Source: Methanomicrobiales archaeon
GTDB lineage: Archaea; Halobacteriota; Methanomicrobia; Methanomicrobiales; Methanospirillaceae
Length of the DNA stretch: 44,096 nt
Reading direction: 5' to 3'
Assembly (NCBI GenBank): GCA_026394715.1
Contig: JAPKXR010000103.1
Coordinates: 1 to 44,096, forward strand
The notes beneath the pieces were generated by a model. That model did no database searches and had not been told where the DNA came from. It worked only from the letters and a program-made list of their open reading frames with translations. Below, piece after piece: positions 27,253 through 37,419 of this stretch (its first letter is position 1; each line of letters opens with the position of its first letter). The position numbers were made by a program, and so were the translations under genes.

Positions 27253-27813
27253 TCAATGCTGGGTGTCCTGGTCTGCATCGATTACATCATCCACAAATGT
27301 CGTTAACTGGCTGAGTACGTCGGGGTCTATCCCTTTTTCTACCATGAGGAAAATTCCGGATAAATTATGGATTCGCAGTTTATTCGTGACAAAGTGGATA
27401 AACTTGGTGATATTATTTGATGGGATGTAAATCAGCATCGAATTGATAGAATCAAGAAGGAGACAGGTTTTTTTCCCTTCAAGTTCTTTTATACACTCAG
27501 TGATTGCAATCCCCATATCGGTAAGGTTTCCGGGATTGCTGATATAGCGACAATTTTTCATAGGTGGTACATTTGATCCGGCCGCATATCTTGTTACGGC
27601 ATCGACAAAATAGATTTTTTCATCATTTATCCCGTATTTCAGGTAATTCTTTTTCAATATACTCGTCAATTGGTTTGTCGTCACCACGATGATATAATAG
27701 TCATGTTCAACGGCAGCTTTTACCACTTCAAGATTTTTATTTCTTATGCCGGTTGCGGATGCCAGGACGATGTACAGTTCATTTTCCGTTTTATCCATCA
27801 TGGAAAAAACCAT
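27253..27813 (-). CDS. RecA/KaiC-like protein lacking a P-loop (cassette 1)
   Basis: This protein of 186 residues has no recognised name. It shares with the two proteins at 31140-31694 and 34719-35309 a central block NPGNLTD[MI]GIAITE, a buried strand ending in Asp (CLLLDSIN, equivalent to the KaiC Walker B strand) and FIHF[VI]TNKLR...G[IV]FL-VEKG-DP. The order and spacing resemble a KaiC/RecA domain, but the N-terminal strand reads VLASATGIRNKN, with no GxxxxGK[ST], so ATP binding in the usual way is unlikely. The frame continues upstream to 27879, but GGAGG spaced 6 nt fixes ATG 27813. It follows the sensor gene after 10 nt. Confidence 0.8.
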   Translation of the reverse strand: MVFSMMDKTENELYIVLASATGIRNKNLEVVKAAVEHDYYIIVVTTNQLTSILKKNYLKYGINDEKIYFVDAVTRYAAGSNVPPMKNCRYISNPGNLTDMGIAITECIKELEGKKTCLLLDSINSMLIYIPSNNITKFIHFVTNKLRIHNLSGIFLMVEKGIDPDVLSQLTTFVDDVIDADQDTQH

Positions 27814-27823
27814 TGAAGTCCTC

Positions 27824-28819
27824 CTATTCCGTAAGGAACTTTTTGGACGCGGGTGATATCTCACCAAAGCCATCAACAATCGTCTTGTTCAGGTTGAGGA
27901 TATTCTGCTGGATCTGTTCCATATTCTTAACCTGAAGAGTCAACTGGGAAACAATCTCTTCCTGGCTGAAATCTCCCCTGATGATCCCCTCCTCAAGCAG
28001 GGCAATATTCTGCCCGACCACCTCTACCGGCGTCTTGAGTCGCATCGCTGCCTCCTTGATATAGCCAATATAACGCGTATTCGCATCTTTTAATTGTGCC
28101 TCAGCTTTCTTGCGTTCGGAGATATCCATAAAACTTTCAAGGAGATGTTTCCTGCCGTTAATATACACCGGGGTAACGGTTTTGATAATTGGAATCGCCT
28201 CACCCTTGCCATTCAGAAGGACCCGTTCTGCATTATCGACCTCATTACCAAGATCCGTAATGGGACATTTACCAATATCTGCGGGACATATGAAATGGTG
28301 ACACATAGTTCCAACAACGTTATCCTTTGGTACTCCGATCATCTGTATTGCCACAGGGTTGGCATCGACTATTGTATGTGTATCCGGGTCTACAATTACG
28401 ATGCCGGTTTGAATCGAATTGAAAATGACTGTTAATTTTCTCTCACTTTCGAGAAGGAATTCTTTTTCTGTGATCAACTGTGTACGTGACGCCTCCAGTT
28501 CCTCTGATAAAATGGCGACGAGTAGCGTGACGATCACAAACATTGCCCCCCTCAGGATCGGGGCCCAGATAGATTCTCCCCCGATGAAGTATCCAACTCC
28601 GATGTGCGTGATGGCAAGGATAACCGCAAGGATAACCGCTTTTTTCTGGTACCATATTGCCGCCAGTACAAGGAGAACATAAAAGAAATGGGTATACCCG
28701 ATAGAAACCCCGAGATAACTATGCATCAGGATTTCAATGACAATACAGATAACCGCAAGAATTGTTAGTGTCAGGATTTTCATCCTCTCATCCCTGAATG
28801 AAGTGGAAAAACGGGTCAT
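27824..28819 (-). CDS. Membrane PAS sensor with a kinase-dead dimerisation segment (cassette 1)
   Basis: The 331-residue protein has four or so hydrophobic helices (about 15-105), a linker coiled coil (about 106-130), one PAS domain (about 128-235) and a conserved helical C-terminus (about 243-331). The PAS holds C173-x4-C178-x6-C185 and ends in ESFMDISERKKAE, a standard PAS-to-coil junction. The C-terminus aligns with a histidine-kinase dimerisation helix (EAAMRLKTPVEVVG against H-E-L-R-x-P-L), but the phospho-His is Met and no HATPase domain follows. It therefore cannot act as a normal kinase. The next gene is 10 nt downstream. ATG 28783 is an alternative start. Confidence 0.82.
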   Translation of the reverse strand: MTRFSTSFRDERMKILTLTILAVICIVIEILMHSYLGVSIGYTHFFYVLLVLAAIWYQKKAVILAVILAITHIGVGYFIGGESIWAPILRGAMFVIVTLLVAILSEELEASRTQLITEKEFLLESERKLTVIFNSIQTGIVIVDPDTHTIVDANPVAIQMIGVPKDNVVGTMCHHFICPADIGKCPITDLGNEVDNAERVLLNGKGEAIPIIKTVTPVYINGRKHLLESFMDISERKKAEAQLKDANTRYIGYIKEAAMRLKTPVEVVGQNIALLEEGIIRGDFSQEEIVSQLTLQVKNMEQIQQNILNLNKTIVDGFGEISPASKKFLTE

Positions 28820-29280
28820 GGGACTCTCTCTATGCTCCTTTGTCTTTTTAGTCTTAACTTTTTTCCGTAGACACTAAAAAATACCCCGATATCATCTGCC
28901 TTTCTTATCCGACAAACGATTGAAAAATCTTGTACCATTTATCTAAAGCGTGATTGCCAGGACTAATTCACTGACGTAGATCCAATCTTATAAACATACC
29001 GGTCCTTACAGCAGACCCCCCCTCATTTTCAGTAAAGTCCTGGAGAAAAAAAAACCTCTGTTAATCGGTCAGCAGAACATCGATATCAGTCATGATTGGA
29101 CGAATCATTGATAAAATTTTCAAGACACAGAATAATGTTACTATCAGAAATTGTAGGAGAACTAAAAAACGTTTGAATGAATCAATCGATATTATTTCTC
29201 GATTATCCATCATTTACGCCACATTTAACGTCAGACCACCAGGTCTACCGGGTATTTTTTGCACCATGGATAGCAACCTG
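28820..29280. other. Divergent intergenic region between cassettes 1 and 2
   Basis: No gene is recognised in about 460 bases. It should hold the promoter of the minus-strand sensor; a run of A/T near 28840-28880 may include its TATA element. The conserved box found upstream of the plus-strand copies (29281-29333) was not found in front of the minus-strand copy. Confidence 0.4.
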
Positions 29281-29384
29281 ACTATCGGTTTGTTGCAGAA
29301 TTCATAAACTAGTTATTTGAGGATAGCAAATAAGCCTTATATTGTCTGGTACACGTTTAGTGTGTAATAAAAAGGGGAATTTCT
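29281..29384 (+). promoter_or_regulatory. Conserved upstream region of cassette 2
   Basis: Collinear with 32103-32206 in front of cassette 3. The best-kept part spans 29281-29333, about four-fifths identical by hand alignment, and centres on the palindrome AACTAGTT (29307-29314), 78 nt before the ATG in both. AAAAAGG near the start codon is also shared and acts as ribosome site. The palindrome is a candidate operator; the rest may just reflect recent duplication. Confidence 0.5.
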
Positions 29385-31133
29385 ATGTTATCTGTTTTAC
29401 TCGTTGATGATGATCCTGCCCTGTTAGAAATTACCCGTATCTATCTCACAAAGAACAAGGAGATGGGAATTGATACGGCGCAGTCTGCGGCAGAAGCGCT
29501 TGAAAAATTGAAGAACGGGACTTATGATGTGATTGTTTCTGATTATGATATGCCAGTCATGACGGGAATAGAATTTTTGAAAACTATCAGGACGTCCGGG
29601 GACCTCACCCCCTTCATCATCTTCACCGGAAAGGGGCAGGAACAGGTGGCGATGGAAGCCATCAATAATGGTGCAGATTTCTATCTTATACGTGCGGGAG
29701 ACCCTAAAAATGAGTTTATTTCCCTTGATCACAAGATAAGAAAGGCAATTGAGCAGCGGCAGGCGGATATTGCAATCAAGGAATCTGAAGAACGCCTGCG
29801 AAAACTCCTGGCCTCTCTCCCGTCCGGGGTCCTCGTAATCGATGCTGAGACTCACATGATACTGCAGGCAAACCCGGTAGCACTCCTCATGATGGGAGCA
29901 AAGGAAGAGGATATTCTGGGGAAAACCTGCTTTGGACTTGTCTGTCCGAACGAAGAAAGTCAATGCCCTATCACAGACCACGGGCATAAATTCGACAGCA
30001 TTGAGCGGCTGCTGTTACGGAACGATGGTACCGGGATACCGGTACTAAAAAGCCTGGCACGGATCACGCTCGGTAACCGGGAGGTTTTAGTGGAGAGTTT
30101 CATTGACCTCAGCGAGCAGAAGAAAATTGAACGTGAACTCCACGAAAGCAGGGAGAAATACCGGACCCTGGTCGAAGAGATCCATGATATGATCTGGCTT
30201 ATTGATGCGAAAGGCCATTTTAAATACGTAAGTCCCCGGAGTTTCACCCTTCTTGGGTATCATCCGGAAGAATTGATCGGACAGTTGCCCTCTTTATTCA
30301 TCTCATTCGAAGATGCCAACTATGTCAGCGATATTTTTGCAAAGAATTTCACGGAGCATAAAGAACTGCACCTGATCGAGACACATACCCGGAGGAAGGA
30401 CGGGAGAATCGTGGTCCTTGAATCAAGTGCAATCCCCTATTATGCCAAGAATGGTACCATGCTCGGGTACCGCTGTGTCAGCCGGGACATTACAGAAATA
30501 AAGAAAGGTGAGGAGGTCCAGGCTCTTCTTGCTGCAATTGTGACATCTTCTGACGATGCGGTTATCAGCGAGGACTTACACCACCAGATTACTACCTGGA
30601 ACCGTGGTGCCGAGCGGATATATGGATATACCAGGGAAGAGATGATCGGCATGGACGCACATAGAATTGTACCTGAAGAGGAAATGGGTGCATTAGATGA
30701 TATCGTCCCACAGGTCATCAAGGGAGAACATGTCGAACATTTCAATACATTTCGGATTAAAAAAGGAGGGGGTCTTGTTGAAATCTCGCTTTCACTCTCA
30801 CCGATCAGGGACAACAGGGGCCATATTGTAGGTATCGCAACCATTGCGAGGGACTTAACAAAACAGCGAGAGACCGAAAAAGCACTGTTAGCCTATATCA
30901 CCGAGACGGCTATACGGCTTAAGAACCCCGTTGAACTGATCGGAGATCGCCTTTCAGATATACGGGAACAGGTCATGGCGGGTGATGTGACTCCTGAAGA
31001 ACTCCAGCTCCAGCTCCAGCTCCAGATTAAAAATACAGAACAGATTGTTTCGAACCTGCGCGAACTGAATATGGCAATCTCCACGGGGTTTACAACAATA
31101 CCTGAAGCATATCAGAACTACCTTAAACGTTAG
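29385..31133 (+). CDS. Receiver - 3x PAS - kinase-dead protein (cassette 2)
   Basis: The 582-residue soluble protein starts with a receiver domain (1-122): acidic pair D8-D9-D10, phospho-Asp D53 (VSDYDMP), T81 (FTGKG), but the conserved Lys of the last loop is Arg (FYLIRAGDP, R103). Three PAS domains follow: a Cys-type PAS (about 138-245; C182-x4-C187-x6-C194), PAS 2 (about 258-375; DMIWLIDAKGHF...LLGYHPEEL) and PAS 3 (about 378-495; DDAVISEDLHHQITTWNRGA). The end (about 500-582) is the same dead dimerisation segment as in cassette 1, with Ile at the His position. No DNA-binding or enzymatic output domain exists. The pseudo-KaiC gene begins 6 nt after its stop. Confidence 0.85.
   Translation: MLSVLLVDDDPALLEITRIYLTKNKEMGIDTAQSAAEALEKLKNGTYDVIVSDYDMPVMTGIEFLKTIRTSGDLTPFIIFTGKGQEQVAMEAINNGADFYLIRAGDPKNEFISLDHKIRKAIEQRQADIAIKESEERLRKLLASLPSGVLVIDAETHMILQANPVALLMMGAKEEDILGKTCFGLVCPNEESQCPITDHGHKFDSIERLLLRNDGTGIPVLKSLARITLGNREVLVESFIDLSEQKKIERELHESREKYRTLVEEIHDMIWLIDAKGHFKYVSPRSFTLLGYHPEELIGQLPSLFISFEDANYVSDIFAKNFTEHKELHLIETHTRRKDGRIVVLESSAIPYYAKNGTMLGYRCVSRDITEIKKGEEVQALLAAIVTSSDDAVISEDLHHQITTWNRGAERIYGYTREEMIGMDAHRIVPEEEMGALDDIVPQVIKGEHVEHFNTFRIKKGGGLVEISLSLSPIRDNRGHIVGIATIARDLTKQRETEKALLAYITETAIRLKNPVELIGDRLSDIREQVMAGDVTPEELQLQLQLQIKNTEQIVSNLRELNMAISTGFTTIPEAYQNYLKR
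31002..31025 (+). repeat. CTCCAG hexamer repeated four times
   Basis: A perfect 24-nt tandem repeat within the sensor's C-terminal helix, coding for alternating Leu-Gln. The third cassette has the same residues with imperfect repeats, so the length is not variable between these two copies. Confidence 0.7.
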
Positions 31134-31139
31134 GTAACC

Positions 31140-31694
31140 ATGGGGTTTTCTGCCGAAACGCTGAAAGAGAACCGGATCCAACTGCTCCTGGCGGACTCAC
31201 GCAGGCTAAAGCAGACGAATACCGCGGTAATCAAGGAGCTGACGAGCAACGGCTACAGCGTAATGCTTATCTCGGTGACGTTCCCGAACATCGTGGTCCG
31301 GCGGACATATGAAACGGCAGGAATTGACATGTCCAAAATATATGTTGTCGATACGGTAACTAAATACTCAGGTGGCCTGGCTGTCCCCGGCGACCCAAAT
31401 TGTAAATATATCTCTAACCCGGGAAACCTCACAGATATCGGAATTGCCATTACCGAGTGGATTAAGCCCCTGCCGGGAGACAAAAAGTGCCTCTTCTTTG
31501 ATGATATCTCAACGATGCCCCTCTATTCTCCATCGATAACCATCTCGAAGTTTATCCATTTCATCACGAACAAGCTTCGGTTATTTGATGTAGCAGGCGT
31601 TTTCCTCGCAGTAGAGAAAGGTCTGGACCCCGCACTCCTCACGCAGATCTCGACATTTGTGGATGATGTTGAATCCACCTCATTTACTTTTTAA
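31140..31694 (+). CDS. RecA/KaiC-like protein lacking a P-loop (cassette 2)
   Basis: The 184-residue protein is a close paralogue of the one at 34719-35309 (most of the residues between 10 and 170 agree) and a more distant relative of the minus-strand copy. The N-terminal strand LLLADSRRLKQTN has no P-loop glycines or Lys, whereas the Walker B-like strand CLFFDDIS and the helix FIHFITNKLRLFDVAG are kept. This is a RecA-fold protein that most probably does not hydrolyse ATP by itself. It begins 7 nt after the sensor's stop codon and is surely co-translated. Expected role: partner or output of the sensor. Confidence 0.82.
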   Translation: MGFSAETLKENRIQLLLADSRRLKQTNTAVIKELTSNGYSVMLISVTFPNIVVRRTYETAGIDMSKIYVVDTVTKYSGGLAVPGDPNCKYISNPGNLTDIGIAITEWIKPLPGDKKCLFFDDISTMPLYSPSITISKFIHFITNKLRLFDVAGVFLAVEKGLDPALLTQISTFVDDVESTSFTF

Positions 31695-32102
31695 TGCGGT
31701 ACCCTCACTTGCAGAGAGTTCATTCTCCCCATTTGTAATCTTTAGGATTATAATCAGAAAACTGTATGAAAAGTACGGGTATAGTAGCAAACGAGGATCA
31801 ATTTGACAACCATGCAGTATTACTCAGGCCCATGAAAATTACATTTCTTTCCCGGAGATTTACTGCATCAATAGGTTCTATGACCCAAGGGACAAATTGC
31901 TTCCATTCATTTATCCACAAACAACAGACGCCACGATGGTTTATGGCAGTACTCAAACGACTGACCTGTACCGGATTTTATGACTATTAGGGGATATTTT
32001 GGCAGCCAGGGTTGCATATGAAAAATATTTCTGAAATATTTTCTTCATTCATCATTGCTACTCCACTGATATCAGAGAAACCCGGAATCTGTTATCAGGC
32101 AG
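31695..32102. other. Intergenic region between cassettes 2 and 3
   Basis: About 410 bases without a convincing gene. One plus-strand frame (31766-31990, 74 residues) has no ribosome site or family likeness. Cassette 2 must end here; no strong terminator hairpin was seen. Confidence 0.4.
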
Positions 32103-32206
32103 AGCATCTGTTTGTTTCCGAATTCAGAAACTAGTTATTTAAGAATAGCGAATATGCATTGGATAATCAGGTATATGTGGAAAGATGAATAAAAAGGATA
32201 ATTGTT
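32103..32206 (+). promoter_or_regulatory. Conserved upstream region of cassette 3
   Basis: The counterpart of 29281-29384: the palindrome AACTAGTT is at 32129-32136, again 78 nt before the ATG, inside a block about four-fifths identical to that of cassette 2. A TATA-like GGTATATG occurs at about 32170-32177, 30 nt ahead of the ATG, and AAGGATAATTGTT precedes it as ribosome site. Confidence 0.5.
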
Positions 32207-34711
32207 ATGCTGTCTGTTTTGCTCGTGGATGATGATCCTGCCCTGTTGGAAATTGCCCGTACTCATCTTGCAAAAAACAAGGAGATGGGGGTTGATACAG
32301 CACAGTCTGCGGCAGAAGCACTTGAAAAATTGAATGTCGTGACTTATGACGTGGTTGTTTCAGATTACGATATGCCCATAACAACGGGCATTGAATTTTT
32401 AAAAACGCTCCGGTCCTCCGGGAACCTCACCCCCTTCATCATCTTCACCGGAAAGGGACAGGAACAGGTGGCGATGGATGCTATCAACAATGGTGCGGAT
32501 TTCTATCTCATACGTGCCGGTGACCCTAAACATGAATTTATCGATCTCACCCACAAAATACGGAAGTCGGTTAAGCAGCGACGGGCAGAAATTGAGATAA
32601 GGGAATCAGAGGAACGGTTGCGAAAACTTCTCTATTCACTCCCATCCGGCGTTCTGGTAATCGATGCAGAGACCCATATTATCGTACAGGCGAACCCGGC
32701 AGCACTCCTCATGATGGGGGCGAATGAGCAGGACATTACAGGTAATTCCTGTTTCGAGCTTGTCTGTCCAGCCGAAGAAAGCCAATGCCCGATCACGGAT
32801 CTCGGGCAGAAATTCGAAAGTAGTGAACGGCTGCTGTTACGAAACGACGGTACCAGTATACCGGTACTAATAAGCGTGGCCCGGATCACGCTTGGTAACA
32901 GACAGGTACTCGTAGAGACATTTACTGACCTTTCCGCGCAGAAGGAGACCGAACACGAACTTCAAAAGAGCAGGGAAAAATACCGGCACTTAATTGAACA
33001 ATCGAATGAAGCAATTGTCGTGGCACAGGACGGGGTGTTGCGTCTTGCCAATAATAAGGCGGTCGAATTCACAGGGTATTCTGAACAAGAACTGCTATCC
33101 ATGCCATTTCCCGTTCTTATCCACCCGGATGACCGTGCCATGGTAGTGGATCATTACAATGAGCGGGTGAAGGGAGGGGAGGCACCATCCCGCTATATCT
33201 TTCGGCTTCAACCAAAGGACGGGAGCACCCGGTGGGTTGAACTCAGCGTCTCCGTCATAGACTGGGATAGGCAACCAGCTACACTGAATTTTTTAACAGA
33301 TATCACTGATCGTAAGCGAACGGAAGAGACGCTGCTTCAGCTTACCGACCGCCTGTCACTAGCAACGCGGGCAGGAGGCGTGGGTATCTGGGAACAGGAC
33401 CTCATAAAAAATACACTGACCTGGGATGACCAGATGTTTTCCCTCTATGGAATCACAAGGGAAGTGTTCGGCGGTGCATATGAAACATGGCAGGGAGCAA
33501 TCCACCCGGATGACCGGCAACGTTGTGACGCGGAACACCAAAGGGCATTACGGGGAGAGACAAATTACAACACCGAGTTCCGCATACTCAGACCTGATGG
33601 GAAAACCCGTAGTATCCGGGCGCTTGCCCTGGTACAACGTGATATCTCTGGCAAACCCCTGCGCATGGTTGGTACGAACTGGGACATCACCGGGCAGAAG
33701 AAGGTCGAACGCGAACTCCATGAGAGCAGGGAAAATTACCGGACAATGGTCGAAGAGATCCATGACATGATCTGGCTGAGTGACACGAAAGGCCTGCTCA
33801 AGTACGTAAGTCCCCGGAGCACCACCCTGCTTGGTTACCAACCGGAAGAGATGATTGGCCATTTATTCTCGGAATTCATCTCGCTCGAGGACACAAAGTC
33901 CGTCCACAATATTTTTGAGAAAAATTTCAATGAGCCTGAAGAACTGCACCTGATCGAGACCCATTCCCTCCGGAAGGATGGCAGAATTATTATCCTTGAA
34001 TCCAGTGCCGTTCCCTATTATGCTAAGAATGGCACCTTGGTCGGATACCGGGGTGTCAGCCGGGATATTACAGAAATAAAAAAGAGTGGGGAGTTGCAGT
34101 CCCTGCTGGCGGCTATTGTAACATCTTCGGATGATGCAATCGTCGGCGAGGACTCGCATCACATGGTAACCACCTGGAACCTGGGTGCTGAGCGGATCTA
34201 TGGATATTCACGTGAAGAAATGGTAGGTACTGACTCATACAGGATTGTACCAGAGGTGGAAAAGGATGCCCTTCACAACATTATCGATCGGGTCCTCCAG
34301 GGGGAACCGGTTGAACACTTTAACACATTCCGGGTCAAAAAAGATGGAAGTCTTGTTGAAATCTCAATGTCGCTTTCACCAATCCTGGATGACCATGGCC
34401 ATATTATAGGGATTGCGAAGATTGCACGGGACTTAACAAAACAACGTGAGACAGAAAAAGCTCTGCTGGCCTACATCAGCGAGACGGCCATGCGATTGAA
34501 GATCCCGGTAGAGTTGATCGGGGGCCGTCTTTCAGAAATACAGAAACAGGTCCTGGCAGGGGATGTCACTCCAGAGGAGCTCCACCTCCAGCTCCAGATC
34601 CAGGTAAGAAATACAGAACAGATTGTTTCGAACCTCCGTGAACTGAACATGGCTATCTCCACCGGCTTTTCTACGATACCTGAAGCATACCAGGACTATC
34701 TAAAACGATAG
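32207..34711 (+). CDS. Receiver - 5x PAS - kinase-dead protein (cassette 3)
   Basis: This 834-residue protein is an enlarged paralogue of the 582-residue protein. The receiver (D8-D10, D53, T81, R103) and Cys-type PAS (C182-x4-C187-x6-C194) occupy the same positions. Two additional PAS domains are then inserted: one at about 262-370 (FLTDITDRKRTEE at its end) and one at about 375-500 (WEQDLIKNTLTWDDQMFSLY, a PAS-3-like fold with PAC end GTNWDITGQKK). After them come the two PAS domains homologous to PAS 2 and PAS 3 of cassette 2 and the dead dimerisation segment (about 752-834; Met at the His position). No kinase ATPase or DNA-binding domain. The pseudo-KaiC gene starts 7 nt behind it. Confidence 0.85.
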   Translation: MLSVLLVDDDPALLEIARTHLAKNKEMGVDTAQSAAEALEKLNVVTYDVVVSDYDMPITTGIEFLKTLRSSGNLTPFIIFTGKGQEQVAMDAINNGADFYLIRAGDPKHEFIDLTHKIRKSVKQRRAEIEIRESEERLRKLLYSLPSGVLVIDAETHIIVQANPAALLMMGANEQDITGNSCFELVCPAEESQCPITDLGQKFESSERLLLRNDGTSIPVLISVARITLGNRQVLVETFTDLSAQKETEHELQKSREKYRHLIEQSNEAIVVAQDGVLRLANNKAVEFTGYSEQELLSMPFPVLIHPDDRAMVVDHYNERVKGGEAPSRYIFRLQPKDGSTRWVELSVSVIDWDRQPATLNFLTDITDRKRTEETLLQLTDRLSLATRAGGVGIWEQDLIKNTLTWDDQMFSLYGITREVFGGAYETWQGAIHPDDRQRCDAEHQRALRGETNYNTEFRILRPDGKTRSIRALALVQRDISGKPLRMVGTNWDITGQKKVERELHESRENYRTMVEEIHDMIWLSDTKGLLKYVSPRSTTLLGYQPEEMIGHLFSEFISLEDTKSVHNIFEKNFNEPEELHLIETHSLRKDGRIIILESSAVPYYAKNGTLVGYRGVSRDITEIKKSGELQSLLAAIVTSSDDAIVGEDSHHMVTTWNLGAERIYGYSREEMVGTDSYRIVPEVEKDALHNIIDRVLQGEPVEHFNTFRVKKDGSLVEISMSLSPILDDHGHIIGIAKIARDLTKQRETEKALLAYISETAMRLKIPVELIGGRLSEIQKQVLAGDVTPEELHLQLQIQVRNTEQIVSNLRELNMAISTGFSTIPEAYQDYLKR

Positions 34712-34718
34712 GATAATC

Positions 34719-35309
34719 ATGAGATTTTCTGCTGACACCCTGAACGATAACAGGATAGTACTGCTCCTTGCAGACTCACGCAAGCTGAAGCAGACGAATA
34801 CCGCGGTGATCAGTGAGCTGACGCGCAACGGCTATAACGTTTTGATCGTCTCGGTCACGCTCCCGAACATCGTGGTCCGGCGGACATACGAGGCGGCGGA
34901 AATTGACCTGGCAAAAATATACGTTGTTGATGCAGTAACCAGGTACTCGGATGGTCCGACGGTCCCTAACGACCCTCACTGCAAATATATCTCGAACCCA
35001 GGAAATCTCACTGATATTGGAATCGCCATAACTGAGTGGATTAAACCTCTGCCTGGTGAAAAAAAATGTCTATTCGTAGATGATATTTCAACAATGCTCC
35101 TCTATTCTCCATCAATAACCATATCAAAGTTTATCCATTTCATTACAAACAAGCTCCGGTTATTTGACGTGGCTGGCGTTTTCCTCGCAGTAGAAAAAGG
35201 ACTTGACCCTGCTCTATTCTCTCAGATTTCTACATTTACGGACCTGATACAAACAATTGAAGACGATGAAAAACAAAAAGCCCTCAAAGAAAACCTATCA
35301 GCTGACTAA
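34719..35309 (+). CDS. RecA/KaiC-like protein lacking a P-loop (cassette 3)
   Basis: A 196-residue protein nearly identical in pattern to that of cassette 2: LLLADSRKLKQTN at the place of the P-loop, NPGNLTDIGIAITEWIK, CLFVDDIS at the Walker B strand, and FIHFITNKLRLFDVAGVFL. It has an extra charged C-terminal tail (EDDEKQKALKENL) that the other two copies lack. It follows the sensor gene after 7 nt. The same pairing in all three cassettes is the main argument that this protein works directly with the sensors. Confidence 0.82.
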   Translation: MRFSADTLNDNRIVLLLADSRKLKQTNTAVISELTRNGYNVLIVSVTLPNIVVRRTYEAAEIDLAKIYVVDAVTRYSDGPTVPNDPHCKYISNPGNLTDIGIAITEWIKPLPGEKKCLFVDDISTMLLYSPSITISKFIHFITNKLRLFDVAGVFLAVEKGLDPALFSQISTFTDLIQTIEDDEKQKALKENLSAD

Positions 35310-36276: not shown

Positions 36277-37419
36277 ATGCCCATCCCACCCTACACCATT
36301 GAGCCTTTCGATCGCTGCCGGACCATGACTCTCATCGTCCACCCTGATGGCAGCATCAGCGTAAAGGTTCCCGCTGACTATGATAACGCGGCAGTCCGCC
36401 GGTTCGTCGAGCATAACACCGGATGGATCGAGAAACAACGCCGGCACTTTCAGGCACCAGCCCGCCCATCCGTACATACGTTGATAATCGGGGATAGGGA
36501 GGTCCCATGCGCCATCACCTACCAGGGAACACGGAAAAAGATGATGGTCCGGGTCTACATCGACGGTCGGGTCGAAGCATTGGTACCGAATGAGACAGGA
36601 CGGGAATCAGTCATTGCATTTCTTGAACAGAAACGGGATTGGATCAGGCAGGCGATTGATGGAGAACGGAAGGTGCAGGAGCCGGCTGGTGAACAGCGGT
36701 CAGTCGCATGGAACGGTACGGTCATCCCGTATTCGCTTCGCATCAGCCGGCGTGCCCGGAGACTCTCGATTAAGGTCCATTCAGACCGGTCTGTTGAGGT
36801 GGTCGCCCCGGTCGCCGCTACGGACGCAGAAATCGAACGGCTGGTCATGGAAAAGGCCGAATGGATTTACACGACGGTCATGTCTGACGCAAGGCCCGTT
36901 GCTGTTCGGCGGTCGTTCTGTGACGGGGAAATTTACCCGCTCCTCGGCGGGACCCTTACGGTCCAGGTTGCCAGGGGGAGGCCCGCTATTACCGTCGTTC
37001 GGGAAGGAGACTATCTCAAAATCGGGCTCCCGGACGGGGTACCGGGGGCCCTCGAACAGAAAGCTATTCGGAGGGCAGTAGAATATACGCTGAAGACTGA
37101 GACCCACAACGTGGCCATATCCCTGGTAACCCACTATGCGGCAATGTTCGAGGTTGCGGTTCCCCTGGTCGTCGTACGGGACGCCCGGCAGAAATGGGGC
37201 AGTTGTGTGGGGAGGAAAAAACTCCTCTTTTCTACTCATCTTTGTCTGCTGCCCCTCAGGCTCGTCCATTATGTCGTTGCCCATGAAGTCTGCCACATCC
37301 TGGTCATGGACCACTCCGACCGGTTCTGGGAGGCCTTTCTGGCGATCATGCCCGATTGCCGGGAACGGGCAATTGAACTCAGGCGGGACGCCCCACTCTA
37401 CCATTTCCTCCCTGCCTAA
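36277..37419 (+). CDS. YgjP-like (DUF45) metallopeptidase with triplicated N-domain
   Basis: The C-terminal third (about 265-380) is the YgjP/DUF45 domain: KWGSCVGRKKLLFSTHLCL, then the zinc motif HYVVAHEVCHILVMDHSDRFW, i.e. H-E-x2-H plus a downstream His. Standard family members are about 230 residues with one N-terminal beta module. Here the module, with its 'RR..SIKVH.D..V.V..P' pattern and a trailing W-I helix, seems to occur three times: about 6-58, 77-130 and 151-203. Target peptides are unknown. Two TAA codons directly upstream fix the start at 36277. It is followed by a 310-nt gap to the helicase gene. Confidence 0.82.
   Translation: MPIPPYTIEPFDRCRTMTLIVHPDGSISVKVPADYDNAAVRRFVEHNTGWIEKQRRHFQAPARPSVHTLIIGDREVPCAITYQGTRKKMMVRVYIDGRVEALVPNETGRESVIAFLEQKRDWIRQAIDGERKVQEPAGEQRSVAWNGTVIPYSLRISRRARRLSIKVHSDRSVEVVAPVAATDAEIERLVMEKAEWIYTTVMSDARPVAVRRSFCDGEIYPLLGGTLTVQVARGRPAITVVREGDYLKIGLPDGVPGALEQKAIRRAVEYTLKTETHNVAISLVTHYAAMFEVAVPLVVVRDARQKWGSCVGRKKLLFSTHLCLLPLRLVHYVVAHEVCHILVMDHSDRFWEAFLAIMPDCRERAIELRRDAPLYHFLPA

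Follow-up and report, generated by a model that had tools for sequence, protein, structure and literature searches.

Three sensor and small-protein gene pairs

The window, which is the whole 44,096-nt stretch of DNA from a Methanomicrobiales archaeon that was analysed, carries three gene pairs, each composed of a sensor gene and the gene of a small protein (Table 1). The six open reading frames sit at the coordinates given for them in an earlier note on this DNA, and the close spacing described there was reproduced: on the minus strand the small gene (27253-27813) comes 10 nt after the sensor (27824-28819), while on the plus strand the gaps from sensor stop to small-protein start are 6 nt (31133/31140) and 7 nt (34711/34719). 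The three small proteins are 44-81% identical to one another. Cassettes 2 and 3 are alike over 148 nt (75% identity), a stretch that takes in the upstream region and start codon and includes ~115 nt of upstream DNA; as judged from the sequence, they are recent tandem duplicates. No small-protein copies beyond these three were found in the source genome (3.25 Mb, 98% complete). Elsewhere in the window, 36277-37419 encodes a YgjP-like metallopeptidase-family protein, for which the family match falls in three stretches over 380 aa, possibly reflecting an internal duplication.

Table 1. Features of the three sensor/small-protein cassettes, in window coordinates
Feature	Position	Strand	Description
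Sensor 1	27824..28819	-	331 aa; hydrophobic N-terminus (~4 TM, by eye), one PAS with CHHFICPADIGKCPITDLG motif, C-terminal dead-DHp tail
Sensor 1 tail domain	27827..28090	-	88 aa; Met at His position
Small protein 1	27253..27813	-	186 aa; P-loop-less, KaiC-type; DUF7504 E 1.2e-10
Sensor 2	29385..31133	+	582 aa; REC-PAS-PAS-PAS-tail
Sensor 2 REC	29394..29693	+	PF00072, 2e-23; phospho-acceptor Asp present; usual Lys is Arg (by eye)
Sensor 2 tail domain	30867..31130	+	Ile at His position
Small protein 2	31140..31694	+	184 aa; P-loop-less KaiC fold predicted (AlphaFold model); DUF7504 6.4e-5
Sensor 3	32207..34711	+	834 aa; REC, five PAS, tail
Sensor 3 REC	32216..32515	+	PF00072, 3.1e-20; usual receiver Lys is Arg (by eye)
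Sensor 3 tail domain	34445..34708	+	Met at His position
Small protein 3	34719..35309	+	196 aa; 81% identical to small protein 2; DUF7504 4.4e-7
Upstream region and start of cassette 2	29271..29418	+	75% identical to cassette 3 counterpart
Upstream region and start of cassette 3	32093..32240	+	duplicate of 29271-29418

The sensors end in a predicted HisKA-like hairpin without the phospho-acceptor histidine

A C-terminal segment of 88 residues, here called the tail, recurs in all of the upstream sensors. The three window tails align without gaps, which bears out the earlier observation that a related segment of ~85 residues closes all three sensors. The end of the tail lies 0-3 residues from the sensor C-terminus in 85 of 91 proteins, a placement expected of an output module. 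The AlphaFold model of the tail monomer (pLDDT 86) has helices at residues 2-38 and 43-74 and a short terminal helix, and predicts a long two-helix hairpin.

At the position of the phospho-acceptor His the window tails have Met, Ile and Met, the substitutions that had been noted from the sequence. No His was found at this position in any of 138 distinct tails, the residues listed there including L, M, N, S, V, I, R, K, Q and A. The next position, which is Glu or Asp in kinases and is the first of the E/DxxT/N phosphatase motif, was Arg or Lys in 137 of the 138. With the His gone and its acidic neighbour replaced by Arg or Lys, phospho-acceptor and phosphatase chemistry are both lost.

The tail profile was compared by HHalign with 23 genuine HisKA domains from related genomes. 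The alignment was full-length (P 0.001) and placed the H-box in register, with FLATMSHELRTPLNSI against YITETAIRLKNPVELI and with F/Y, P and L/V retained. When the columns of the tail profile were permuted, 200 times in full and 200 times with heptads preserved, none of the 400 trials matched its score. The Pfam and fold searches were less clear. Pfam HisKA (PF00512) weakly matched 9 of 65 tails, with a best E of 1.4e-3, and coiled-coil families matched about as often. Foldseek on the hairpin was not specific, placing CsoR/FrmR first, designed coiled coils among the top matches and HK853 at rank 33, and a sequence search of the PDB with the tail profile returned nothing meaningful. The profile comparison proposed in the earlier note gave the in-register alignment, but the Pfam matches are weak and the Foldseek result is ambiguous, owing to which HisKA ancestry is probable and not proven. 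The tail probably derives from the dimerisation (DHp/HisKA) domain of a histidine kinase, on evidence that is moderate.

The Pfam and Foldseek results would also fit a tail that is not kinase-derived at all and is instead a separate helical output domain, such as a CsoR/FrmR-like nucleic-acid binder or a plain coiled-coil dimeriser, which resembles an H-box by convergence and still pairs with the small protein. This appears unlikely, as the full-length alignment scored above every permutation, the heptad-preserving ones included, the tail follows PAS domains in the usual place of HisKA, and a separate DNA-binding domain is absent. The proposed resemblance to a HisKA hairpin that lacks both the His and a HATPase domain is supported by the register alignment and the predicted hairpin, the Pfam matches to HisKA being few and weak.

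MetOD2 (PF18548) is a domain of 80 aa and four helices that occurs as REC-MetOD2 in Methanomicrobiales. It was rejected as the identity of the tail, having no match in the window sensors or in one REC-tail protein and not figuring in the list of the 25 families that 65 tails matched most often. Separately, three proteins of ~210 aa (L194, L196 and L206) have a degenerate tail that lacks the terminal IPEAYR segment; L206, which was the one scanned, is a REC-tail response regulator in which a MetOD2 match is absent.

Sensor inputs

Pfam matches were collected for 65 sensors. PAS was found in most, REC in 12, GAF in ~5 and Cache in 2, and no HATPase family was matched in any of the 65, in agreement with the claimed absence of a kinase ATPase domain. 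The three window proteins had been described as PAS sensors; all three do contain PAS domains, but sensors 2 and 3 start with REC domains which that description overlooked. With these N-terminal REC domains, ordinary kinases could pass phosphoryl signals to the two sensors. A Cys-rich PAS motif (C-H/Y/F-x3-C/H ... CP) was present in 39 of 91 tail proteins and hints at redox, heme or metal sensing. In these proteins, among them the window sensors (27824-28819, 29385-31133 and 32207-34711), it reads GxxCHxFICPAExGKCPITDLG or C-x3-H ... CP variants.

The small protein is of a P-loop-less KaiC type

Among 62 small-protein relatives searched against Pfam (E <= 0.1), DUF7504 matched all 62 (best 2e-13), DUF835 matched 43 and the KaiC model matched 33. 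The DUF7504 matches of the window proteins were 1.2e-10, 4.4e-7 and 6.4e-5, the last of these below the curated cut-off. The AlphaFold model built on the 62 relatives (pLDDT 93) predicts a RecA/KaiC fold, and its best solved matches by Foldseek were the RecA-superfamily ATPase PH0284, KaiC and FlaH (E ~3e-6 to 1e-5, with 3e-6 for 2dr3); the RecA/KaiC-type pattern and the missing P-loop recognised earlier are thus both supported, since a Walker A GK[ST] was found in none of the 62. The position of the Walker B strand is kept (LLFDSIS). Between the small family and the KaiC ATPases found in the outgroup operons, HHalign gave a weak alignment (best E 0.05) that was in the expected register, and the RecA/KaiC assignment therefore relies on the predicted fold and Pfam. 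A PDB sequence search with the small-protein profile gave nothing meaningful.

No variation was seen at P94, T98, H140, P164 and D175 in the 62 proteins, and D121 and D163 are nearly invariant. The invariant residues indicate that some binding function is under selection. Conservation of this degree goes beyond the need of a pure scaffold, and the small protein may still be an enzyme or ligand sensor whose activity is regulated by its sensor, with these residues (D163-P164 among them) forming another ligand or nucleotide site. A known catalytic motif is absent, however, there was no sequence match to solved structures, and the literature covered reported no activity of the related inactivated KaiC (iKaiC) proteins; we consider an enzymatic or ligand-sensing role quite improbable.

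Pairing and co-divergence of the two genes

Across 61 genomes from the order to which the window belongs, each close homologue of the small protein has a tail protein directly upstream, mostly at 3-15 nt. Of 394 genomes sampled across the phylum, 45 contained tails, all of them from the window's order, and a tail lay directly upstream of 85 of the 89 strong small-protein matches; the four without one include a gene with an internal stop codon (G374). A small gene was found downstream of 84 of 110 tails (76%), the other 26 being solo. The GTDB species loci, which overlap the first genome set and are not independent of it, were paired in 54 of 59 cases; this search was queried with an 11-row alignment, and all of the loci are titled Methanomicrobiales or its members except two labelled only Euryarchaeota. 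Of the unpaired GTDB loci, L213 has the reversed order, L231 has a frameshifted small gene and the rest are truncated or degraded. At L213 (3495-5308, Methanoculleus sp. FWC-SCC1) the small gene precedes the tail sensor, and the genes overlap or abut. The neighbourhood survey that the earlier note had suggested thus recovered a conserved unit across Methanomicrobiales, and the two genes do not occur mostly apart, the small gene almost always having a tail as its neighbour.

Tail and small-protein distances were correlated (Mantel r 0.60), and none of 5000 partner swaps within genomes gave a correlation as high (mean 0.32); for within-genome pairs alone r was 0.80. As swaps did not match the observed co-divergence, the tail sensor and small genes evolve as a unit, and their joint inheritance suggests a pair that signals by touch and not by phosphate transfer. 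That the tail is instead a phosphatase or phospho-relay HisKA acting on response regulators, with the small protein unrelated or accessory, would suit the sensors with REC domains and the report of 'HisKA, no HATPase' proteins mainly from Archaeoglobi and Methanomicrobia (PMC5847659), but is very improbable, because every tail lacks the defining His, the loss of this and the acidic residue makes phosphatase activity on response regulators unlikely, and the co-divergence would be left unexplained.

No natural fusion of sensor and small protein was found. Among 634 clustered neighbour ORFs there was no recurring target gene beside the cassettes, the clusters comprising only PAS/sensor proteins, HEAT-repeat-like proteins and lineage-level synteny.

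Solo tails and the terminal segment

In the tail tree the 26 solo tails form several groups among the paired tails, with 8 changes of state, at least 6 of which are forced by supported branches, which suggests that the partner was lost or moved elsewhere more than once. These changes, together with the proportion of solo tails, show that adjacency is not obligatory. Small genes broken by a frameshift, split or stop were seen at L231, L042, L265 and G374:C28, the first two beside an intact tail sensor, and are consistent with ongoing partner loss. Five solo tail sensors (L102, L103, L105, L106 and L107) adjoin genes that, by eye, resemble the [NiFe]-hydrogenase maturation genes hypD, hypC or hypA/hypE.

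Three genomes (G049, G278 and G389) have tails but no small protein of the cassette type, and the terminal IPEAYRxFL segment was absent from the tail of each; it was also absent from two more solo tails in genomes that do have small proteins. The three tails represent two ortholog groups only, and for this reason a role of the segment in docking the small protein is put forward as a lead.

Distant relatives and KaiC-type ATPases

Relatives of the small protein from outside the order (E 1e-27 to 1e-37) adjoin P-loop KaiC-type ATPases at 10 of 10 loci of one group (L179-L188), and four other distant relatives (L175-L178) are not beside such genes. The conserved operon at L179-L188 combines a P-loop-less DUF7504/DUF835-like protein with KaiC-like ATPases, of which there are two or three (GRSGxGKT, GxYGTGKT). 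Two strong KaiC ATPase genes are present elsewhere in the source genome. On the simplest reading, the small protein would act in trans as an adaptor of KaiC-type ATPases.

A second P-loop-less DUF7504 protein (235-241 aa) was seen at L043-L050, in several cases directly upstream of a protein of 387-402 aa with a P-loop near residue 230, as in the minus-strand genes L044:5208-5915 and L044:4048-5211. The L044 P-loop protein gave a weak KaiC match in its N-terminal part and matches to Ras/Arf-like GTPases in its C-terminal part. An apparent diphthine-synthase gene, recognised by eye, is often nearby at these loci.

Discussion

We favour, as reasonably likely, a reading of each cassette as a phosphotransfer-independent sensor/adaptor pair. 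Signals would enter the sensor via PAS, GAF, Cache, membrane or REC domains and would be transmitted by the C-terminal two-helix hairpin, which would have descended from, or at least strongly resembles, DHp/HisKA; the His that accepts phosphate, its acidic neighbour and the ATPase domain have apparently all been lost. A dimer of such hairpins would change conformation, and the short C-terminal segment may present the state of the hairpin to the co-encoded KaiC-fold protein. The latter, having lost Walker A, would act as a binding adaptor and would probably relay the signal to targets encoded apart from it, KaiC-type ATPases or others. The parts and what they have lost, the pairing and co-divergence, the confinement of the tail to one order in this sample and the predicted folds come from the computation itself; HisKA ancestry, direct contact, dimerisation, the adaptor role, terminal docking and a downstream ATPase are the elements that we infer.

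Parts of such an arrangement have been described before. The iKaiC proteins have been proposed as archaeal signalling hubs (Makarova 2017, as cited in PMC5847659), and fusions of REC and PAS to the inactivated KaiC domains DUF835 and MEDS are known (Galperin et al. 2018, PMC5847659). The earlier statement that no described system has this pairing is therefore too broad where iKaiC hubs and REC/PAS-DUF835 fusions are concerned, but stands for the pair of tail sensor and DUF7504 protein, on which no paper was found in a search that left most subscription literature outside its coverage. The literature covered likewise held no paper mentioning DUF7504, and no function or pairing partner was found reported there for DUF7504 or DUF7090 proteins (PF24336, PF23365), the first of which is the family that matched all small proteins.

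The iKaiC/DUF835/MEDS hubs resemble the cassettes in linking a P-loop-less KaiC-type domain to REC and PAS inputs in Methanomicrobia. The cassettes differ from them in that the small protein is a separate gene, has DUF7504 and not DUF835 as its best match, and has a partner with a HisKA-like tail found only in this order; within the same limits of coverage, the order-wide pair itself was not found. The archaeal 'HisKA, no HATPase' proteins likewise join PAS/GAF to a C-terminal HisKA-like dimerisation domain and have no ATPase, but they keep the conserved His, whereas the sensors here have lost both this residue and the acidic one after it (Galperin et al. 2018, PMC5847659). From two-component histidine kinases the sensors are set apart by the lack of an H-box His (0 of 138) and of HATPase_c (0 of 65). 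KaiC/RecA-superfamily ATPases (PF06745; PDB 2dr3, KaiC, FlaH) share the predicted fold and Walker B strand position of the small protein, which at ~180 aa and without Walker A is not expected to hydrolyse nucleotide. Bacterial histidine pseudokinases, such as the one of Caulobacter (PMC5361649/PMC4211667), also reuse kinase architecture for signalling by protein contact; there it is the output domain that has taken on a sensor role, whereas the cassettes have no ATPase domain left and co-encode a pseudo-KaiC.

On a wider and more tentative view, which we hold as possible and short of probable, Methanomicrobiales evolved a phosphate-free counterpart of two-component signalling, present in up to seven copies per genome, in which degenerate kinase dimerisation domains directly contact dedicated, co-inherited pseudo-KaiC proteins that gate KaiC-type ATPase hubs. 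Archaea use two-component phosphorelays less than bacteria. KaiC-like proteins, in active as well as inactivated form, have been put forward as alternative hubs, with the path by which a sensor would reach them left undefined, and the pair offers a concrete, testable one, for which paralogous cassette copies with co-diverging partners can serve as specificity controls. The pair would also show how a kinase module loses catalysis yet keeps signalling.
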